Below, piece after piece: positions 9,025 to 17,806 of a stretch of DNA of 64,000 bases; position 1 is the stretch's first letter, and every line of letters begins with the position of its first letter. The stretch lies in assembly GCF_028369105.1 (NCBI RefSeq), contig NZ_JAQNDO010000001.1:4184501-4248500 (forward strand). Direction: 5' to 3'. The notes beneath the pieces are model-generated. The model had not been told where the DNA came from. It saw nothing but the letters and a program-made list of their open reading frames with translations, and did not search any database. The DNA comes from Polyangium mundeleinium (GTDB lineage: Bacteria > Myxococcota_A > Polyangia > Polyangiales > Polyangiaceae). A program made the translations under genes and the position numbers.

Positions 9025-9846
9025 ATGACGATCGACGAAAAGGTGACCTTGAGCGAGGAGAAAGAGACCCTCCTCATCACGGTGTACGGCAAAGCGGAGG
9101 AGAGCCGCCTGCCCGACTCCCTCTTGCGTGATCGCTTTGCCGCCGACGCGATCCGGCGGGTCGACTACGATTTCTCGAAGCTGAAGGTCCGCCGGGACGA
9201 CATGATCTCCCTGGCGATACGCGCGCACCTTCTGGATGGCTGGACGCGCGACTTCCTCGCACGCCACCCCGACGCCACCGTGCTGCATCTCGGCTGCGGG
9301 CTCGACAGCCGCGTGTTCCGGGTCGATCCGCCCGCGAGCGTCCGCTGGTTCGACGTCGACTATCCGGAGGTCATCGCGCTGCGCCGTCGCCTCTATCCGG
9401 AGCGCGCGGGGTATACCCTCCTCGGCTCGTCGCTCACGGCCCCGCAATGGCTCGACGAAGTGCCGGCGGATCGCCCGGCGATGATCGTCGCCGAGGGGGT
9501 CCTCCCGTATCTTCGCGAGGACGAGGTGCCCCGCCTCTTTGGTCGCCTCACGGCGCATTTCCCGGCGGGCGAATGTGCGTTCGACTGTTACAGCCGCCTC
9601 GGCGTGCGGCTCCTCCGGCGCCACCATTCGATCAAGGCGACCGGCGCGTCCGTGCACTGGGGCCTCGACGATCCCCACGAGCTCGAAGTTCAGGTCCCGA
9701 AGCTCGTGTTCCTGACGGAGATGTCGAGCCACGATCCGGCGCAGCTCGCCAGGATGTCGAGGGTGGCGCGCCTCAGCTACCGGGTCTTCATGGCGATTCC
9801 GGCGCTCAAGAAGGCCGGGCGCATGGTACGTTACGGATTCGAATGA
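9025..9846 (+). CDS. LCM/O-methyltransferase-type SAM-dependent methyltransferase
   Basis: A 273-residue class I methyltransferase of the leucine-carboxyl-methyltransferase/Tcmp O-methyltransferase family. The SAM-binding strand-loop is Val-Leu-His-Leu-Gly-Cys-Gly-Leu-Asp-Ser-Arg (residues 86-96). It is followed by Trp-Phe-Asp-Val-Asp-Tyr-Pro-Glu-Val, the acidic strand that binds the SAM ribose in this family, and by Ile-Val-Ala-Glu-Gly-Val-Leu-Pro-Tyr-Leu, the family motif IV. Many bacterial members modify small natural products, but no specific substrate can be read from the sequence. The stop overlaps the next start (ATGA), so the two genes are probably translated together. Confidence 0.88.
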   Translation: MTIDEKVTLSEEKETLLITVYGKAEESRLPDSLLRDRFAADAIRRVDYDFSKLKVRRDDMISLAIRAHLLDGWTRDFLARHPDATVLHLGCGLDSRVFRVDPPASVRWFDVDYPEVIALRRRLYPERAGYTLLGSSLTAPQWLDEVPADRPAMIVAEGVLPYLREDEVPRLFGRLTAHFPAGECAFDCYSRLGVRLLRRHHSIKATGASVHWGLDDPHELEVQVPKLVFLTEMSSHDPAQLARMSRVARLSYRVFMAIPALKKAGRMVRYGFE

Positions 9847-10694
9847 ACGTGGAGGCGCTCGCGGAAGCCGTTCGAACCGGCGTATGGCCTCGCGCCGTGG
9901 CGCGCCTCGAGCTCGACACGCCCGAGCGACGGGACCTCGCGGACCGCATCGCCTCGTCGACGCGGGATCCGTTCGAGGCCTGGGATCGGCTCCGAATGCA
10001 TCGCGCCCGCGAGGGATACGAGGACGACCCGCTGCGGCTCTTTCATTTGCGCGGCGTGGGCCACGGCGGCGCGCCCGGCTCGATCCGGCGACGCATGCGC
10101 GCTTGTGCCGTCACCATCGCGCTTTGCCGCAGCCCCGGCGTTCCGCCCGCGCGCGCCGTGCACCACCCGATCACGACGCAGGACGCCGTCGCGTTCTCGC
10201 GGTTCGCCCCGCTCGTCGCGCAAGCCGAACGCCTCGCGCTCGCGGCCACGCGCGCCCTGGACGCGCTCGGTCGAAGCACGAGGGCCCTCTCCTGCGATCG
10301 CCGCGAATCGATCCGCCGCCCCGTCTGGAGGACCGGGATCCATCGGGAGCGGCCGCCGGAGCGAGCGGCCCTCCTCCTCGCGGTCGAGCTGATGCGGCAG
10401 GCCCCCGGCGGGCTCGCAGACGTCCCGATTCCACGAACCTGGTGGGGAGCGTGGACCCGCGCATGCGTCGCGGCCGTCGGCGAGCTCGCGTGGCGCAAGC
10501 TCGTCGCGCAAGGGAGTCGCGTGGAGCCGCAGCCGAGGTCCGTGGGCGCGCGTTTCTACCTGGATCCGGCCGCGGTCGGCCGTGCATTTGCCGATCTCGA
10601 ATCGCCGTTCGGCTTGCTCCTCCAGCTCGAGAGCCTCGGCGTCGAGGTCGTGGGGTTTTCCCACGAATCCGTGACGCTCGAGCTCTGGCCCTGA
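9843..10694 (+). CDS. Hypothetical protein coupled to the methyltransferase
   Basis: A 283-residue Arg/Ala-rich protein not assigned to a family. No signal peptide, membrane helix or clear catalytic motif is visible. The N-terminal part is mainly helical, with a Arg-Leu-Phe-His-Leu-Arg-Gly-Val-Gly segment. The C-terminal third contains a possible beta-alpha unit ending Leu-Glu-Leu-Trp-Pro. The ATG overlaps the methyltransferase stop in an ATGA junction, which fixes the start and suggests co-translation. The gene ends three bases before the end of the convergent MdnC-like gene. A role with the methyltransferase is inferred from position only. Confidence 0.65.
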   Translation: MNVEALAEAVRTGVWPRAVARLELDTPERRDLADRIASSTRDPFEAWDRLRMHRAREGYEDDPLRLFHLRGVGHGGAPGSIRRRMRACAVTIALCRSPGVPPARAVHHPITTQDAVAFSRFAPLVAQAERLALAATRALDALGRSTRALSCDRRESIRRPVWRTGIHRERPPERAALLLAVELMRQAPGGLADVPIPRTWWGAWTRACVAAVGELAWRKLVAQGSRVEPQPRSVGARFYLDPAAVGRAFADLESPFGLLLQLESLGVEVVGFSHESVTLELWP

Positions 10695-10697
10695 TCC

Positions 10698-11687
10698 TCA
10701 ACGAACCTCGCGGCGCGCCCCCGGCACGCCCACGAGCACGTCGACGAGGGCCGCGACCATCGGGTGATGCGGCGCGTTCGCTTCGAGCCAGAAGAACTCG
10801 CCGGCGGGGTTCACTTCGAGGAGCACGTGCTCGCCCTCCGGCGTCACGATGAAATCGGCCGCGCCGTATTGCATTCCCACGGCCTCCTGGTACCGGCCGA
10901 GCGCGTCCTCGACGTGCTTCGGCAGGTCGTGGTGGCGCCACTGATCGATCATCGCGAGCCCCTTGTTTCGCCAGTCCACGTCGGCCCCCTCGAATCGCTG
11001 CGAGTCGATGCGCGCGGCGAAGACCTTCGTGCCGAACACGGTCGCGCGCACCTCGTATGCTTTCTCGACGCGCTCCTGAAAATACATCGGGCAAAGGCGG
11101 AGCTGTTCGAGGCGGTCGGTCGTCTCGGGGCGCACCTCGCTCGTCATCACCACCTGGAGCTTGCCGTCGTCCTTCACGAATGGCTCCGCGCTCAGCATCT
11201 TCACGATGGCGCCCTTCGGGCAACTCGAAAGGAACGCGCGCGCCTTGGCCGGATCGTTCGTGCCGAGCGTGCGGGGCGTTCGAATGCCGGCCTCCCGAAA
11301 GATACGCTGGTGCAGCGGCTTGTGGTCGCTCCCCCGGACCCGCGCGTAGACGTCCATCTTGAATGCGGGGCAGGCGGCGAGCACGCCCTGGAGGAACCGC
11401 TCCGACTCCGCGAGCGCCATCCGCTGGTGGCCCGGGTGCATCTTCTCCGGAAAACCGACGGCCTTGTGATAACGGCGCCCCCAGATCGCGTCGCCTTCGC
11501 CGATCGCGTGACCGTTAAACAGGAACGACTCGCCGTCCGGCTCCTGGCGGAACGTGATCGTCGCCCTCACCGGGAAATCGTTCATGTGGAAGACGACGGG
11601 CTCGGCGCCGCGGCCGCGAATTTCTTCGGCCACGCGCTCGATGAAGGGAGGGGCGTCGTTCTGGTGCGTGAGAATGAGGACGTTCAT
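10698..11687 (-). CDS. mdnC: MdnC/MvdD-like ATP-grasp graspetide ligase (ester-forming type)
   Basis: A 329-residue ATP-grasp enzyme matching MdnC/MvdD, the microviridin macrocyclase that activates Asp/Glu side chains with ATP and joins them to Thr/Ser as omega-esters. It begins like the family (Val-Leu-Ile-Leu-Thr-His). It carries the central Cys-Pro-Met-Tyr-Phe-Gln-Glu segment, Phe-Ala-Ala-Arg-Ile-Asp-Ser-Gln, Asp-Trp-Arg, and the C-terminal Glu-Val-Asn-Pro-Ala-Gly-Glu-Phe-Phe-Trp-Leu-Glu, which provides metal-binding Glu and Asn. Glu-Phe-Phe-Trp, rather than Glu-Trp-Gly-Met, separates MdnC from MdnB types as I know the family. The start at 11687 overlaps the upstream ligase stop (ATGA); the frame upstream of it is spurious. 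Third gene of the precursor operon. Confidence 0.92.
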   Translation of the reverse strand: MNVLILTHQNDAPPFIERVAEEIRGRGAEPVVFHMNDFPVRATITFRQEPDGESFLFNGHAIGEGDAIWGRRYHKAVGFPEKMHPGHQRMALAESERFLQGVLAACPAFKMDVYARVRGSDHKPLHQRIFREAGIRTPRTLGTNDPAKARAFLSSCPKGAIVKMLSAEPFVKDDGKLQVVMTSEVRPETTDRLEQLRLCPMYFQERVEKAYEVRATVFGTKVFAARIDSQRFEGADVDWRNKGLAMIDQWRHHDLPKHVEDALGRYQEAVGMQYGAADFIVTPEGEHVLLEVNPAGEFFWLEANAPHHPMVAALVDVLVGVPGARREVR

Positions 11688-12646
11688 GGTTCGTCGCCTT
11701 CCCGGAGGAGGGTTTCTGCGATCGACGCGGCGATCGGGAGCCCAAGCTCGGCTTCGAGCATTCCCCACTCGCCGGTGGGGTTCACTTCGAGGAACACCGT
11801 CTCGCCGCCCGGCGTCACGATCAAATCGAGGCAGCCCTGCCGGAGCCCGAGGCGCCTCATGAGGTTTTTCAGGTTTGCTTTCGTCGCTGCGTCGAGCACG
11901 TGCGGCTTCCAGGATCCTGCCTGGGAAAAGCGCCAATCAGCGCCGGCGTCTTTTCCGTCGAGGGCGCCGGTCCAGGCCGCGCCGCCCGCCCAGGCGACGC
12001 GCAGCTCCAGGGCCTTCGGGATCTCCTCCTGGAAGATCATCGGCCCGCGTCGTACGGAGTCGAGCTGCGCGAGGTCCTTGGTGCGCAAACGACGGGTCGG
12101 GAACGCGCGTCCCCCTTGCATTCCGTAGTCGAGCGGCGCGTGCAATTTGCACACGACACGCCCCTCGTGCGCCTCGAAGAGCGCGCGCACCGCGTCCGGA
12201 TCCGAGGTGAACCGCGTGTCGGGGATGCGGAGCCCGCATTCCCGCGCGAGCCGGAGCTGGAGCAGCTTGTTCTCCGCGGCGTGGACGCGCTCGGGCCCGT
12301 CGACCCAAAGGCCTTCGAGGAGCGCGAGCGCCCCGAAAAAGAGGGCGTGCGCCTCCCGGTTCACGGTTTCCTTCTCCGCCGCCGCCATTCCTTTCGCCTC
12401 GATGCGCGGCCACGCGCGCCAGAGCCAGATGGCCTCCGGCCGCACGCGCTCGCCCCGGACCCATACCGTGCCGGGGTCCTCCGCGGCGAGCGAGGCGCCG
12501 AACGTATCGTCCTCGAAGAGGCGATCGGTATCGAGGCGATAGGGGCGCGCGCCGCGGAGGCGGAGTTCCTCCGCGACGCGCTCGGTGACGAAGGGCTCTC
12601 TCGCGTGGGAGAGCAGGAGGACGATCCGCGAGGCCATGCGGGTCAC
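11684..12646 (-). CDS. mdnB: MdnB/MvdC-like ATP-grasp graspetide ligase (amide-forming type)
   Basis: A 320-residue ATP-grasp ligase of the MdnB/MvdC type. In microviridin biosynthesis that enzyme closes the omega-amide between the core Lys and a Glu/Asp after the esters are formed. Family marks include Val-Leu-Leu-Leu-Ser-His near the start, Asn-Lys-Leu-Leu-Gln-Leu-Arg, Pro-Met-Ile-Phe-Gln-Glu, and the C-terminal Glu-Val-Asn-Pro-Thr-Gly-Glu-Trp-Gly-Met-Leu-Glu, diagnostic for the MdnB side. The GTG at 12646 overlaps the stop of a 17-codon mini-ORF (GTGA), which supports this start; an ATG three codons later is the alternative. It is coupled to the MdnC-like gene by ATGA and lies 73 bases after the precursor gene. 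Confidence 0.92.
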   Translation of the reverse strand: MTRMASRIVLLLSHAREPFVTERVAEELRLRGARPYRLDTDRLFEDDTFGASLAAEDPGTVWVRGERVRPEAIWLWRAWPRIEAKGMAAAEKETVNREAHALFFGALALLEGLWVDGPERVHAAENKLLQLRLARECGLRIPDTRFTSDPDAVRALFEAHEGRVVCKLHAPLDYGMQGGRAFPTRRLRTKDLAQLDSVRRGPMIFQEEIPKALELRVAWAGGAAWTGALDGKDAGADWRFSQAGSWKPHVLDAATKANLKNLMRRLGLRQGCLDLIVTPGGETVFLEVNPTGEWGMLEAELGLPIAASIAETLLREGDEP

Positions 12647-12696
12647 CCGATCCGTACGCGCGAGGTCGTCGCGCTGCGATGCTCGTGACGGTTCAT
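12643..12696 (-). CDS. 17-residue mini-ORF between precursor and ligases
   Basis: A short ORF lies in the 73-base gap between the graspetide precursor and the MdnB-like gene. It starts with ATG, has GAGGAA six bases upstream, encodes 17 mostly basic residues (Met-Asn-Arg-His-Glu-His-Arg start) and stops inside a GTGA overlap with the ligase start. The MdnB-like gene has no clear ribosome-binding site of its own, so this ORF may deliver ribosomes to it by coupling. Whether the peptide has its own function is unknown. It is too short to prove from sequence alone. Confidence 0.5.
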   Translation of the reverse strand: MNRHEHRSATTSRVRIG

Positions 12697-12719
12697 GGTT
12701 CCTCGGGATCGACCGGCGG

Positions 12720-12929
12720 TCAGATGTAATCGCAGTACGGCTTGTACGTGTAGCAATCGTCCGCGTCGGACGGGTACTTCTTGGTGCACTCGCTGTCGAG
12801 GCAATGGTACGTCGGGGCAGGATTGGTCCCGCCGCTCGTGTTCATCTCGGTCGACTGCGTCTGCTCGTCGTCGACGAGCAGGTAGGCAAAGAGCGGGGTC
12901 ATGTTTTCTTCGTCGTTCGGCAGGGACAT
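12720..12929 (-). CDS. mdnA: Microviridin-type graspetide precursor peptide with four cysteines
   Basis: A 69-residue RiPP precursor. The leader contains Pro-Leu-Phe-Ala-Tyr-Leu-Leu at residues 12-18, a variant of the PFFARFL helix bound by microviridin ligases. The core has Thr49-Lys-Lys51-Tyr-Pro-Ser54-Asp55-Ala-Asp57-Asp58, matching the microviridin TxKYPSDx(E/D)(E/D) pattern. By homology the links would be Thr49-Asp55 and Ser54-Asp57 esters and a Lys51-Asp58 amide. Unusually, Cys43, Cys48, Cys59 and Cys66 flank the core and an 11-residue tail follows it, ending Thr-Tyr-Lys-Pro-Tyr-Cys-Asp. AAGGAG lies 7 bases before the ATG. First gene of the ligase operon, with its own promoter element at 12978-13006. 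Confidence 0.93.
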   Translation of the reverse strand: MSLPNDEENMTPLFAYLLVDDEQTQSTEMNTSGGTNPAPTYHCLDSECTKKYPSDADDCYTYKPYCDYI

Positions 12930-12977
12930 GGGGGTTCTCCTTGGTTCCGGTTACCGTCGAATCTCTCGACACTGAGC

Positions 12978-13006
12978 CTTACGCGCCTGCCTGTTCGGAT
13001 TGGACA
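12978..13006 (-). promoter_or_regulatory. Bipartite promoter of the graspetide operon (TGTCCAATC-N13-GCGTAAG)
   Basis: Read on the minus strand: TGTCCAATC, exactly 13 bases, then GCGTAAG, ending 48 bases before the precursor ATG. The same two boxes with the same spacing occur before three other genes here. An A-rich stretch (GACGAAAAAAGAAACG) lies just upstream of the first box and could act as an UP element. The box sizes and spacing fit an ECF sigma promoter. It lies in the short gap after the exporter gene, so the precursor operon can be transcribed independently of it. Confidence 0.75.
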
Positions 13007-13026
13007 GGTCTACGTTTCTTTTTTCG

Positions 13027-14814
13027 TCAACGATAACCAGCCGCCTGGAGACGGAAGAGGGCCGCATAACGCCCCTCCGCGCCGAGGAGCGCGTCGTGGT
13101 CGCCACGCTCGGCGACGCGCCCGCCCTCCATCACGAGGATCTCGTCGGCGAGCCGCACCGTGGAGAATCGATGGGACACGAGGATCGCCATACGCCCCTC
13201 CGTCTCGGACCGGACCCGCGCGAAGAGCGCCGCCTCCGCCGCGGGATCGATGGCCGCGGTCGGCTCGTCGAAGAGGAGCAGGTCGGCTTGTTCGCGGAGG
13301 AAGGCCCGCGCGAGGGCGAGCTTTTGCCATTCGCCGCCGGAGAGCTCGACGCCGCCGGGGAACCATTTGCCGAGCCGCTGATCGAGGCCCTGCGCGAGCT
13401 TTCGGACGATCGGGCCTGCCTCGCTGCGCGCGAGCGCGCGCGTGATCAGCTCGTCCGGCACCGCATCCTCGGCGGCGCGCGGGGCCACGTTGTCTCGGAC
13501 CGGGAGCTGGTACCGGACGAAGTCCTGGAACACCACGGCGAGCCGCGCGCGGAGGGCCTCGGGATCCCAGGCGGAGAGATCCCGCCCATCGAGGAAAATA
13601 CGCCCCTCGGTGGGCTCGTAAAGGCCGGCGACGAGCTTCAAGATCGTCGACTTGCCGGAGCCATTCTCGCCGACGAGCGCGAGCTTTTTTCCCGGGGCGA
13701 GGAAAAAGTCGACGCCGAGGAGCGCAGGGCGCTTCGCGCCCGGGTACGTGAAGCCGACGTTCTCGAAGCGGAGCCCTTGTTCTTTTTCTTCCCGCACGCG
13801 GGAAGCGGGAAGGAGCGGCCTCTTCGCGGGGACCGGCCGATCGAGAAACCCATACAGGTTTCCGAGGTACTGCTGGTCCATGTAGAGCCCTCGCAAGCCC
13901 CCGAGCGCCTGCTTCAGCGCGCCGTCCCCCTGCTTGAACGTGACGAGCGCGAGGCCGAGATCCCCGACGGTGAGCGCGCCCGCGAGGGCTCGAAACGCCA
14001 CGGAGACGTAGACCGCATAAAAGAGAGCCAGCGCGACAAGGTCCGCGCCGAGACCCACGAGGAGCCGCCTTCGCGCGAGCGCCTGGTCCTCCTCGAATAC
14101 GAGCGAAAAGACCCGCCGCGCGCGTTCGAGGAACGTCGGTCCCGTGCCGAAGAGGCGCACCTCCTTTGCATGATCGTCGCGGGTGAGGACCTGCTCCAGA
14201 TAGGCTTGCTCCCGCGCCTCGGTGGCCCGTCGATTCTGGAGGCGGAAGATCGCGGTCGCGAAGCGGGTCTCCGTGAAAAAGCTCGGCAGCGCGGCGAGGA
14301 GGATCGCGAGCGTGCAGAGCGGCGAGAATCGAAAGAGGAGCGCCGCGGAGCCAGCGAGGACCGCGAAGGCTTGGACCATCGCGAAAAAACCGGCGAGCAG
14401 CGCCACCGGACGACCGACGGCCTCGCGCCGCGCCCGCGTGAGCGCGTCGTAAAAGCCGGCGTCCTCGAAGCAGGCATAAGGAACGGCGATCGCCTTTTCG
14501 AGGATCGCCCGCTGAAGAAGGAAGCCGAGCGTGAGGCGCAGGCGCGCGGTCGCGAACTGGTTCAGGCCCCCGGCGACGTACGTGAGGAAGAGGAGCACGG
14601 CCTCCGCGACGATACCGACGAGCACGACCTGCCTTTCGCCGCGGGCGACGCCGTCGAGGACACGCCGGGCGTACCAGGCCATGCCGGTTGGCGCGGCGCC
14701 GGCGAGGAGGGCGGCGAGCACCATGGCCACGAGGGCGAAGGGGCTCGCGCGCCACGCGAGCGTGACCGTGCGCAAAAGCCGGGATCGAAGGGAGGACGCG
14801 GGGGACTCGTGCAC
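13027..14814 (-). CDS. mdnE: ABC exporter, fused permease and ATPase (graspetide export)
   Basis: A 595-residue half-size exporter: six membrane helices in residues about 15-310, then an ATPase domain with Walker A Gly-Glu-Asn-Gly-Ser-Gly-Lys-Ser-Thr, signature Leu-Ser-Gly-Gly-Glu, Walker B Leu-Leu-Leu-Phe-Asp-Glu-Pro and the H-loop His in Val-Ser-His-Arg. There is no N-terminal C39 peptidase domain, so leader removal must come from elsewhere. Microviridin clusters carry a comparable transporter (MdnE). The frame runs 440 bases further upstream across the divergent lipoprotein gene. I chose GTG 14814, which leaves a short cytoplasmic N-terminus and sits 34 bases after the promoter element at 14849-14877. 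The symbol reflects role and context, not proven orthology. Confidence 0.88.
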   Translation of the reverse strand: MHESPASSLRSRLLRTVTLAWRASPFALVAMVLAALLAGAAPTGMAWYARRVLDGVARGERQVVLVGIVAEAVLLFLTYVAGGLNQFATARLRLTLGFLLQRAILEKAIAVPYACFEDAGFYDALTRARREAVGRPVALLAGFFAMVQAFAVLAGSAALLFRFSPLCTLAILLAALPSFFTETRFATAIFRLQNRRATEAREQAYLEQVLTRDDHAKEVRLFGTGPTFLERARRVFSLVFEEDQALARRRLLVGLGADLVALALFYAVYVSVAFRALAGALTVGDLGLALVTFKQGDGALKQALGGLRGLYMDQQYLGNLYGFLDRPVPAKRPLLPASRVREEKEQGLRFENVGFTYPGAKRPALLGVDFFLAPGKKLALVGENGSGKSTILKLVAGLYEPTEGRIFLDGRDLSAWDPEALRARLAVVFQDFVRYQLPVRDNVAPRAAEDAVPDELITRALARSEAGPIVRKLAQGLDQRLGKWFPGGVELSGGEWQKLALARAFLREQADLLLFDEPTAAIDPAAEAALFARVRSETEGRMAILVSHRFSTVRLADEILVMEGGRVAERGDHDALLGAEGRYAALFRLQAAGYR

Positions 14815-14848
14815 AGGGGCGAGGACCTCGAAATCGAGAACACGACCC

Positions 14849-14877
14849 CTTACGCCGCAAGCCGCGTGGATTGGACA
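14849..14877 (-). promoter_or_regulatory. Bipartite promoter of the ABC exporter gene
   Basis: On the minus strand: TGTCCAATC, 13 bases, GCGTAAG, ending 34 bases before the GTG start of the exporter. It is identical in both boxes and in spacing to the element before the graspetide precursor. The position supports the short form of the exporter and marks exporter and precursor as co-regulated although separately transcribed. It lies 47 bases from the divergent lipoprotein start at 14924. Confidence 0.75.
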
Positions 14878-14923
14878 CGGGACCTCGACAGGAGGACGGG
14901 GCGATCGTGATAATGTCGGCGAC

Positions 14924-16261: not shown

Positions 16262-16369
16262 GCTTGCTCCCGGCCCGAGAGCATTTTTTCGTATCCCCCT
16301 CCTCGGCGGTCGTTGTATGAGTCCCAATGGGCGTGGTGCTCCCTGCCGCGCCTTCGAGGGACAGCCGCC

Positions 16370-17806
16370 ATGAATTCGTTCAATTTCACGCAAGCCGACG
16401 GCTCGTCACGGGCCGTCGTCGGATATCGGTATGCGCCGCCCAAGGCCGCTGCGAAGCGTTACGTCGCCGGCCGTGGCAATGTCTCGCGGCTCCCCCCCAA
16501 GGTCGACCTGCGGCCTTTCATGTCACCGATCGAGGACCAGAGTGACACGAATAGCTGCGCCGCCAACGCGACGGCGGGCGCCTACGAGTACCTCGTCAAG
16601 CGCCACCTCGGCGAAGACGCCTACGACGTCAGCCGCCTCTTCATCTATTACAATGGCCGTTACGTCGACGAGCCGGAGAACATCGAGGACGAGGGCAGCT
16701 ACCTGCAATCCGTCATCGCGGGCCTCAAGGAGTACGGCGCGTGCTCGGAGGAGACCTGGGCCTTCGACCCCGAGGTCGTGAACGATGAGCCCTCGGAGGA
16801 AGCGTACGAGGAGGCCAAGCAGTTCCTCATCGAGGACACCGAGCTCGTCCCGACGGACCTCGAGGCCTGGAAAACGGCGCTCGCGGAGGGCCACCCGATC
16901 ATCTTCGGGGTCAAGCTCTTCTCCTCGTTCGACAAGCACAAGAAGGCGGGCCTCGTGCCGGTCCCGACCCCGCGCGAGACCGGGCGCGAGAGCCATGGCG
17001 GCCACGCGATGCTTTGCGTCGGTTACTCGGATCCGGACCAGGTCTTCATCGTCCGCAACTCCTGGGGGCCGGAGTGGGGCGACAAGGGGTATTGTTACAT
17101 CCCTTATCGGTACCTCATGAACGAGGACTACAACTTCGGCGATTCGTGGATCATCAAGCGCATCGACGTGCTCCCGCCCGACGAGGAGACCTGGTCCGAC
17201 GATGACGAGTCCGTGCTGGAGGACGTGGCCGGCGTCCTTGCCCAGCTCGACGAGGAAGAATACACGAGCCTCCTCGATCGAATGGGCGACGTCCCGCTCG
17301 ACGTGCGGCTCTCGCTCCTGTTCTTGCGCGCGGCGGGCGCGGACGGGGACCTCGCGGATAGCGAGATCGAGGCCACGGCCGAGCACATCCTGCCCGTGCT
17401 GGAGCAGCTCGGCTCGCGGCAAAGCGCGGAGAAAGTGCTCCGCAATGCGCTGCGCCGCCTCGACGACGAGCGGCTCGTCGAGGAGACCGTCGAGATCCTC
17501 GGCGAGGTGTTCTCGCAGGAAGTGCTCGCCTCGATTGCGTCCGAGCTCCAGGAAATCGTCGGCTCGGACGACGACGTCTCCGAGGAGGAGCAGGCCTTCG
17601 TCGATTCCGTCGTCGAGCACTGGCAGATCGAGCCCGCGGAGGACGAGGGCGACGAGGACGAAGAAGAGGAAGAAGAGGACGAGGACGAGGACGAGGAAGG
17701 CGACGAGGACGAAGAGGAAGAAGAGGACGAGGGCGACGAGGACGAAGAAGAGGAAGACGACGAAGAGGAAGAGGAAGACGACGAAGAGGAAGAGGAAGAC
17801 GAGTAG
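16370..17806 (+). CDS. C1A (papain-like) peptidase with TerB-like domain and polyacidic tail
   Basis: A 478-residue cysteine peptidase without a signal peptide. The papain-type site is complete: Gln57 of the oxyanion hole, nucleophile Cys63 (Asn-Ser-Cys-Ala-Ala-Asn), His212 in Gly-His-Ala-Met-Leu-Cys-Val-Gly-Tyr, and Asn230 in Arg-Asn-Ser-Trp-Gly. The mature domain begins near Pro-Pro-Lys-Val-Asp-Leu-Arg (residues 42-48) after a short N-terminal segment, much shorter than a normal propeptide. Residues about 275-425 are helical and resemble TerB/DjlA-like modules (an acidic Ala-Asp-Gly-Asp-Leu-Ala-Asp-Ser-Glu loop). The last 50 residues are almost all Glu and Asp, encoded by GAN repeats. The substrate is unknown. 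The acidic tail could work as an inhibitor, or as a metal or substrate tether. Confidence 0.85.
   Translation: MNSFNFTQADGSSRAVVGYRYAPPKAAAKRYVAGRGNVSRLPPKVDLRPFMSPIEDQSDTNSCAANATAGAYEYLVKRHLGEDAYDVSRLFIYYNGRYVDEPENIEDEGSYLQSVIAGLKEYGACSEETWAFDPEVVNDEPSEEAYEEAKQFLIEDTELVPTDLEAWKTALAEGHPIIFGVKLFSSFDKHKKAGLVPVPTPRETGRESHGGHAMLCVGYSDPDQVFIVRNSWGPEWGDKGYCYIPYRYLMNEDYNFGDSWIIKRIDVLPPDEETWSDDDESVLEDVAGVLAQLDEEEYTSLLDRMGDVPLDVRLSLLFLRAAGADGDLADSEIEATAEHILPVLEQLGSRQSAEKVLRNALRRLDDERLVEETVEILGEVFSQEVLASIASELQEIVGSDDDVSEEEQAFVDSVVEHWQIEPAEDEGDEDEEEEEEDEDEDEEGDEDEEEEEDEGDEDEEEEDDEEEEEDDEEEEEDE

Follow-up and report, generated by a model that had tools for sequence, protein, structure and literature searches.

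Cyanobacterial microviridins (MdnA/MvdE; NF033738, PF12559) combine a leader helix motif with a T-x-K-Y-P-S-D core, and their precursors are served by ligases of the MdnB and MdnC types and an ABC exporter. Lactones are formed first, by the MvdD/MdnC type, and the lactam after (PMC7823629, PMC13039773; like all papers cited here, used as extracts). Either Glu or Asp can supply the lactam acid, microviridin E having Asp there, and in the microviridin J–trypsin complex the S1 site is filled by the residue between Thr and Lys (PMC7823629). Among myxobacteria, microviridin clusters are conserved in Archangium, Cystobacter and Sorangium; the table in the extract of PMC12766979 lists none for Polyangium or Nannocystis.

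Cysteines are conserved in other clusters of graspetide precursors, some beside SPASM enzymes, for which thioethers made by radical SAM enzymes have been suggested (PMC8939145). The family described below resembles these in its conserved cysteines but falls outside those precursor clusters, and no radical SAM gene was noticed in its loci on inspection by eye. Another graspetide precursor with cysteine is ThfA, whose compound we take to be fuscimiditide. The native cysteine of ThfA forms disulfides and was removed by the authors as C76A; it lies in the leader, ThfA is not a microviridin, and the disulfide-bonded graspetide/lasso products of that work are engineered chimeras (PMC13003496). Stryphnines, knottins from a sponge, contain disulfides as well as a side-chain Ser–Glu ester, so an ester and a disulfide in one peptide are not new as such; they differ in their sponge origin, the failure of their authors to find an ATP-grasp enzyme and the lack of a microviridin core (PMC13418204). 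The strings CTKKYPSD, TKKYPSD, HCLDSE and YHCLDS do not occur in the literature searched, and no cysteine-bearing microviridin appears in the extracts of PMC8939145, PMC7823629, PMC13003496, PMC13418204, PMC4558948, PMC4979651, PMC13097080, PMC9576775, PMC12766979 and PMC10435759, a coverage that leaves the main precursor surveys outside.

The window (the whole 64,000-nucleotide stretch of Polyangium mundeleinium DNA analysed here) holds a four-gene cassette ordered ABC transporter, precursor, MdnB-like ligase, MdnC-like ligase on the minus strand (Table 1). An earlier note had described a 69-codon precursor gene with a leader motif, a microviridin core and four cysteines. Its coordinates are right, the strand that it left unstated is minus, and every one of these motifs is found in the translation. 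The gene begins with ATG, closely preceded by AAGGAG.

Table 1. Features of the cassette in the window, in order of transcription.
Feature	Coordinates	Strand	Basis or remark
ABC transporter (permease-ATPase)	13027..14814	-	probable GTG start at 14814
Precursor peptide gene, 69 aa	12720..12929	-	ORF and microviridin model match
Leader motif PLFAYLL, aa 12-18	12876..12896	-	sequence; counterpart of PFFARFL
Cys43	12801..12803	-	kept in 11/11 precursors
Cys48, immediately N-terminal of core Thr	12786..12788	-	kept in 11/11 precursors
Core T49-K-K-Y-P-S-D-A-D-D58 (aa 49-58), microviridin-type	12756..12785	-	motif and ligases
Cys59, immediately C-terminal of core	12753..12755	-	5/5 Polyangium, 0/6 others
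Cys66, in tail	12732..12734	-	5/5 Polyangium, 0/6 others
MdnB/MvdC-like ATP-grasp ligase (317 aa from ATG), predicted to form the lactam	11684..12637	-	best PDB match 5ig8
MdnC/MvdD-like ATP-grasp ligase, predicted lactone former	10698..11687	-	best PDB match 5ig9

Assignment of the precursor to the microviridins, as the earlier note had it, holds: NF033738 matches at E 2.9e-5 (24.8 bits, curated cut-off 26) and ligases of both types adjoin the gene. The Pfam model PF12559 gives 18.5 bits against a curated cut-off of 21. With E values of 0.01 or lower (best 7.5e-10), all 11 precursors that we aligned match the NCBIfam model; one of them, from genome G376, lies above the cut-off with 35 bits. 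The core TKKYPSDADD fits T-x-K-x-P-S-D followed by two acids, and the three nucleophile and three acid positions of a microviridin core are all there. In the leader the motif reads PLFAYLL, PLFAHLL or PFFAHLL, with P12, F14, A15, L17 and L18 unchanged in all 11; the Arg of PFFARFL is thus His or Tyr, which sets the family apart from cyanobacterial microviridins, as do the conserved flanking cysteines, a core extended at both its N and C termini and a cassette in which no acetyltransferase was seen.

The neighbouring genes likewise proved to be what had been claimed for them. The MdnB-like ligase is closest to 5ig8, which we take to be MdnB (206 bits), and to AMdnB 7m4s (201 bits). Its partner matches 5ig9 (205 bits), which is MdnC (PMC7823629), and CdnC 7mgv (159 bits), and ABC transporter domains identify the exporter. 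Both ligases keep the LEVNP motif and score under the NCBIfam equivalog cut-offs (270 of 425 bits for the MdnB-like and 279 of 475 for the MdnC-like); the ATG of the MdnC-like gene overlaps the stop of the MdnB-like gene. Class II/III microviridins are marked by Gly-Gly together with a C39-peptidase transporter; Gly33-Gly34 occurs in the window precursor, though Pfam gives no C39 peptidase match in the ABC transporter. The exporter accompanies the cassette outside Polyangium, at 41–46% identity in the four loci whose contigs reach it. No close homologue of it was found at eight cysteine-free microviridin loci, where the best pieces share 27–35% identity.

Relatives of the precursor were sought in sampled Myxococcota genomes and, by one pattern scan, in a wider set of contigs. 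Five of six Polyangium genomes encode it, with all four cysteines in each. A scan of genome contigs with the stretches T[YT]HCLDSE and CTKKYPSD, which divergent relatives may escape and from which the window's own genome and its nearest records may be missing, gave 23 matching stretches; nine loci encode relatives (three from Polyangium, four from Nannocystis, of which one is a metagenome bin, and one each from a Myxococcales and a Polyangiaceae bin). A profile search placed the cysteine-bearing family in 4 of 377 genomes of the phylum sample, adding only G376 beyond the genus. The pattern Cys-Thr-x-Lys-Tyr-Pro-Ser-Asp matched once in each of 11 among 317 class genomes, always in the cysteine-bearing family, and its reversed control nowhere in the same set. 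Plasmids searched with the precursor yielded nothing at E values up to 5. Weak matches of the precursor search (E 0.02–0.9) were set aside after a motif scan of their loci gave no precursor of the cysteine-bearing type; one of these loci, L019 of genome G023, has cysteine-free precursors instead.

Across the family, a variable linker is followed by the nearly invariant block PTYHCLDS[E/P]CTKKYPSD (one member has T for Y41), in which Thr40, Asp45 and Ser46 never change. The six relatives outside Polyangium read PTYHCLDS[E/P]CTKKYPSDxDE and have Cys43 and Cys48 only. The expectation that relatives would keep the four-cysteine spacing is therefore borne out by the five Polyangium precursors and fails for the rest of the family. 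Homologues without conserved cysteines, named in the earlier note as evidence against its proposal, exist for one half of the pattern: Cys43 and Cys48 occur in 11 of 11 precursors, while five have Cys59 together with Cys66 and six have neither.

Among the five Polyangium precursors, a small sample, pN/pS is 0.056 for aa 42–59, compared with 0.276 for aa 1–34, 0.589 for aa 35–41 and 0.585 for aa 60–69. Judged by these ratios, aa 42–59 are under purifying selection. Within the loose tail, Tyr62, Lys63, Pro64, Cys66, Asp67 and Tyr68 are nevertheless fixed, positions 65 and 69 varying around them; P. fumosum DSM 14668, for one, departs from the window precursor with the tail KPSCDYF.

The microviridin model matches 11 of the 377 phylum-sample genomes (E up to 0.01), four through the cysteine-bearing family. 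Thirteen further precursors come from the seven remaining genomes and two from genome G023, and none of these 15 (eight genomes) has a cysteine after its presumed start Met. They share the core motif, homologous ligases and, in some, the Asp-Asp pair, and differ in their leader (PFF-x-R-F/Y) as well as in lacking cysteine. We listed 18 of their cores by hand, counting once a core common to three precursors: 10 have the acid pair DE, 4 have ED and 4 have DD, the last from three genomes of two genera. Asp at both of the last acid positions had been presented as unusual; we drop it as a novel feature, given these four cores and the Asp of microviridin E (PMC7823629). The two cysteine-free precursors of G023 (locus L019) lie ~0.6 kb apart and carry two KYPSD cores each. 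Loci L036 and L037 hold arrays of three and four precursors, several with long post-core tails such as FKGGTEYDEKW.

In a midpoint-rooted tree of 37 ligases, built without aligned pieces under 280 aa and without locus L027 (its contig stops short of the ligase genes), the ligases that accompany cysteine-bearing precursors fall into a single clade for each paralogue (MdnB-like 99/98, MdnC-like 96/91). Each clade divides into five Polyangium rows (100/100) and a sister group of five others, supported at 91/85 for the MdnB-like ligase (not starred) and 99/99 for the MdnC-like ligase. The two cysteine patterns being those of sister clades, gain of Cys59 and Cys66 in Polyangium and their loss elsewhere each take two steps. 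The Polyangiaceae bin clusters with Nannocystis in the tree, suggesting that the cassette has passed between families.

In genome G005 the flanking genes are kept and ~177 bases replace positions 9835–14903 of the window, so that the cassette is missing from the syntenic site. Genome G001 has the same gene order within the cassette, but its locus gives no alignment to that of G005; the cassette sits elsewhere. Three Nannocystis loci, and likewise the Myxococcales bin, have the order precursor, MdnB, MdnC, ABC. We take the four genes to behave as one unit that is present, absent or relocated together. A methyltransferase gene (9025–9846) and a papain-like protease gene (16313–17806) were considered for the pathway and left out because both persist in G005 without the cassette. 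The protease (plus strand) belongs to the C1 peptidases and combines a TerB domain with an extended acidic tail; one of this kind lies near the cassette in P. fumosum, strains 6x1 and y55x31. Between methyltransferase and ligase is an open frame of ~284 aa (9840–10694, plus strand) with no Pfam match; in P. fumosum (L022) the two genes are adjacent without it. In G001 a subtilase-family protein (PF00082; L056, 11514–13604, minus strand) is encoded directly upstream of the exporter and may be a target or a leader peptidase.

From the observed genes, motifs and conservation we infer, at a probability of about 0.6, that the locus makes a disulfide-braced microviridin; its bonds, export, cleavage site and target are all predicted. 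The ester/amide cage is expected from the ligases and the core motif. The leader helix (PLFAYLL) would recruit the two ATP-grasp ligases, the MdnC-like enzyme forming the Thr49–Asp55 and Ser54–Asp57 lactones before the MdnB-like enzyme adds the Lys51–Asp58 lactam, links predicted by analogy with microviridin. Once modified, the peptide would leave the cytoplasm through the ABC transporter; there the oxidising machinery of the host may close the cysteines, and the leader would be cut near the Gly/Pro-rich linker (aa 33–39) by a protease encoded outside the cassette. General host enzymes are invoked for both tasks because the loci showed no shared gene for an oxidoreductase or a peptidase among open frames viewed by eye and some neighbours compared with Pfam. 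Two matches to the VKOR family, and none to DsbB, occur in the host genome. The product would be secreted and would inhibit serine proteases, with Lys50 at P1 and hence trypsin-like targets, since Lys50 is the counterpart of the residue that fills S1 in the microviridin J complex (PMC7823629). By the same analogy Cys48 would stand at P3.

That disulfides form is predicted from the conserved cysteines and the probable export of the peptide. Across the wider family, a Cys43–Cys48 loop may brace the cage on its N-terminal side, and Polyangium would add a second bridge, most likely Cys59–Cys66, to brace the tail. This pairing is weakly favoured over Cys48–Cys59 with Cys43–Cys66 because Cys43 and Cys48 occur without the other two, which is a single evolutionary contrast. 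Co-occurrence of Cys59 and Cys66 is likewise one contrast between two clades and so says little on pairing. On this assignment the Polyangium peptide would be pentacyclic (three ATP-grasp rings and two disulfides) with a Bowman-Birk-like loop, and the Nannocystis peptide would have four rings and one disulfide, a tentative picture that we hold at somewhat less than even odds.

Bowman-Birk and sunflower trypsin inhibitors carry C-T-K at P3-P2-P1 in a disulfide-braced loop, clamped by the P3 cysteine. They have no ester/amide cage and unrelated genes, so the likeness is one of analogy. It does lend something to a nested arrangement of the same cage, in which Cys48–Cys59, directly flanking the core, would clamp its ends and Cys43–Cys66 close outside: C-T-K falls at P3-P2-P1 here too, with P1 taken from the microviridin J–trypsin complex (PMC7823629). 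The six of 11 members that keep Cys43 and Cys48 without Cys59 and Cys66, in which Cys48 needs no Cys59, make nesting unlikely in our judgement. The cysteines might instead bind metal, serve ligase recognition or form intermolecular links, leaving an ordinary tricyclic microviridin. His42 adjoins Cys43 in all 11 precursors and the cassette shows no oxidoreductase, as such a role would allow; conserved cysteines that come in even numbers (two or four) in a peptide for which the cassette supplies an exporter, and homologous ligases that work without cysteine in the cysteine-free myxobacterial microviridins, render it a decidedly poor bet. An additional ATP-grasp link, for instance Thr40–Asp45 or a thioester to cysteine, giving four or more condensations, would account for the invariance of Thr40, Asp45 and Ser46. 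With only two ligases, both nearest to standard types, and three nucleophiles and three acids in the core that already explain the usual product, we regard it as very improbable.

The cysteine-bearing microviridins are thus well supported as a gene family, one for which we predict disulfide chemistry. Microviridins are potent serine-protease inhibitors and engineering scaffolds. If the proposed structure is true, the pentacyclic Polyangium product would be the first microviridin of such build known to us. A natural family whose conserved cysteines number two or four would illustrate the combination of an ester/amide cage with disulfides and would supply ligases that take long, cysteine-bearing cores, and its two forms would make the contribution of each cysteine pair directly comparable.
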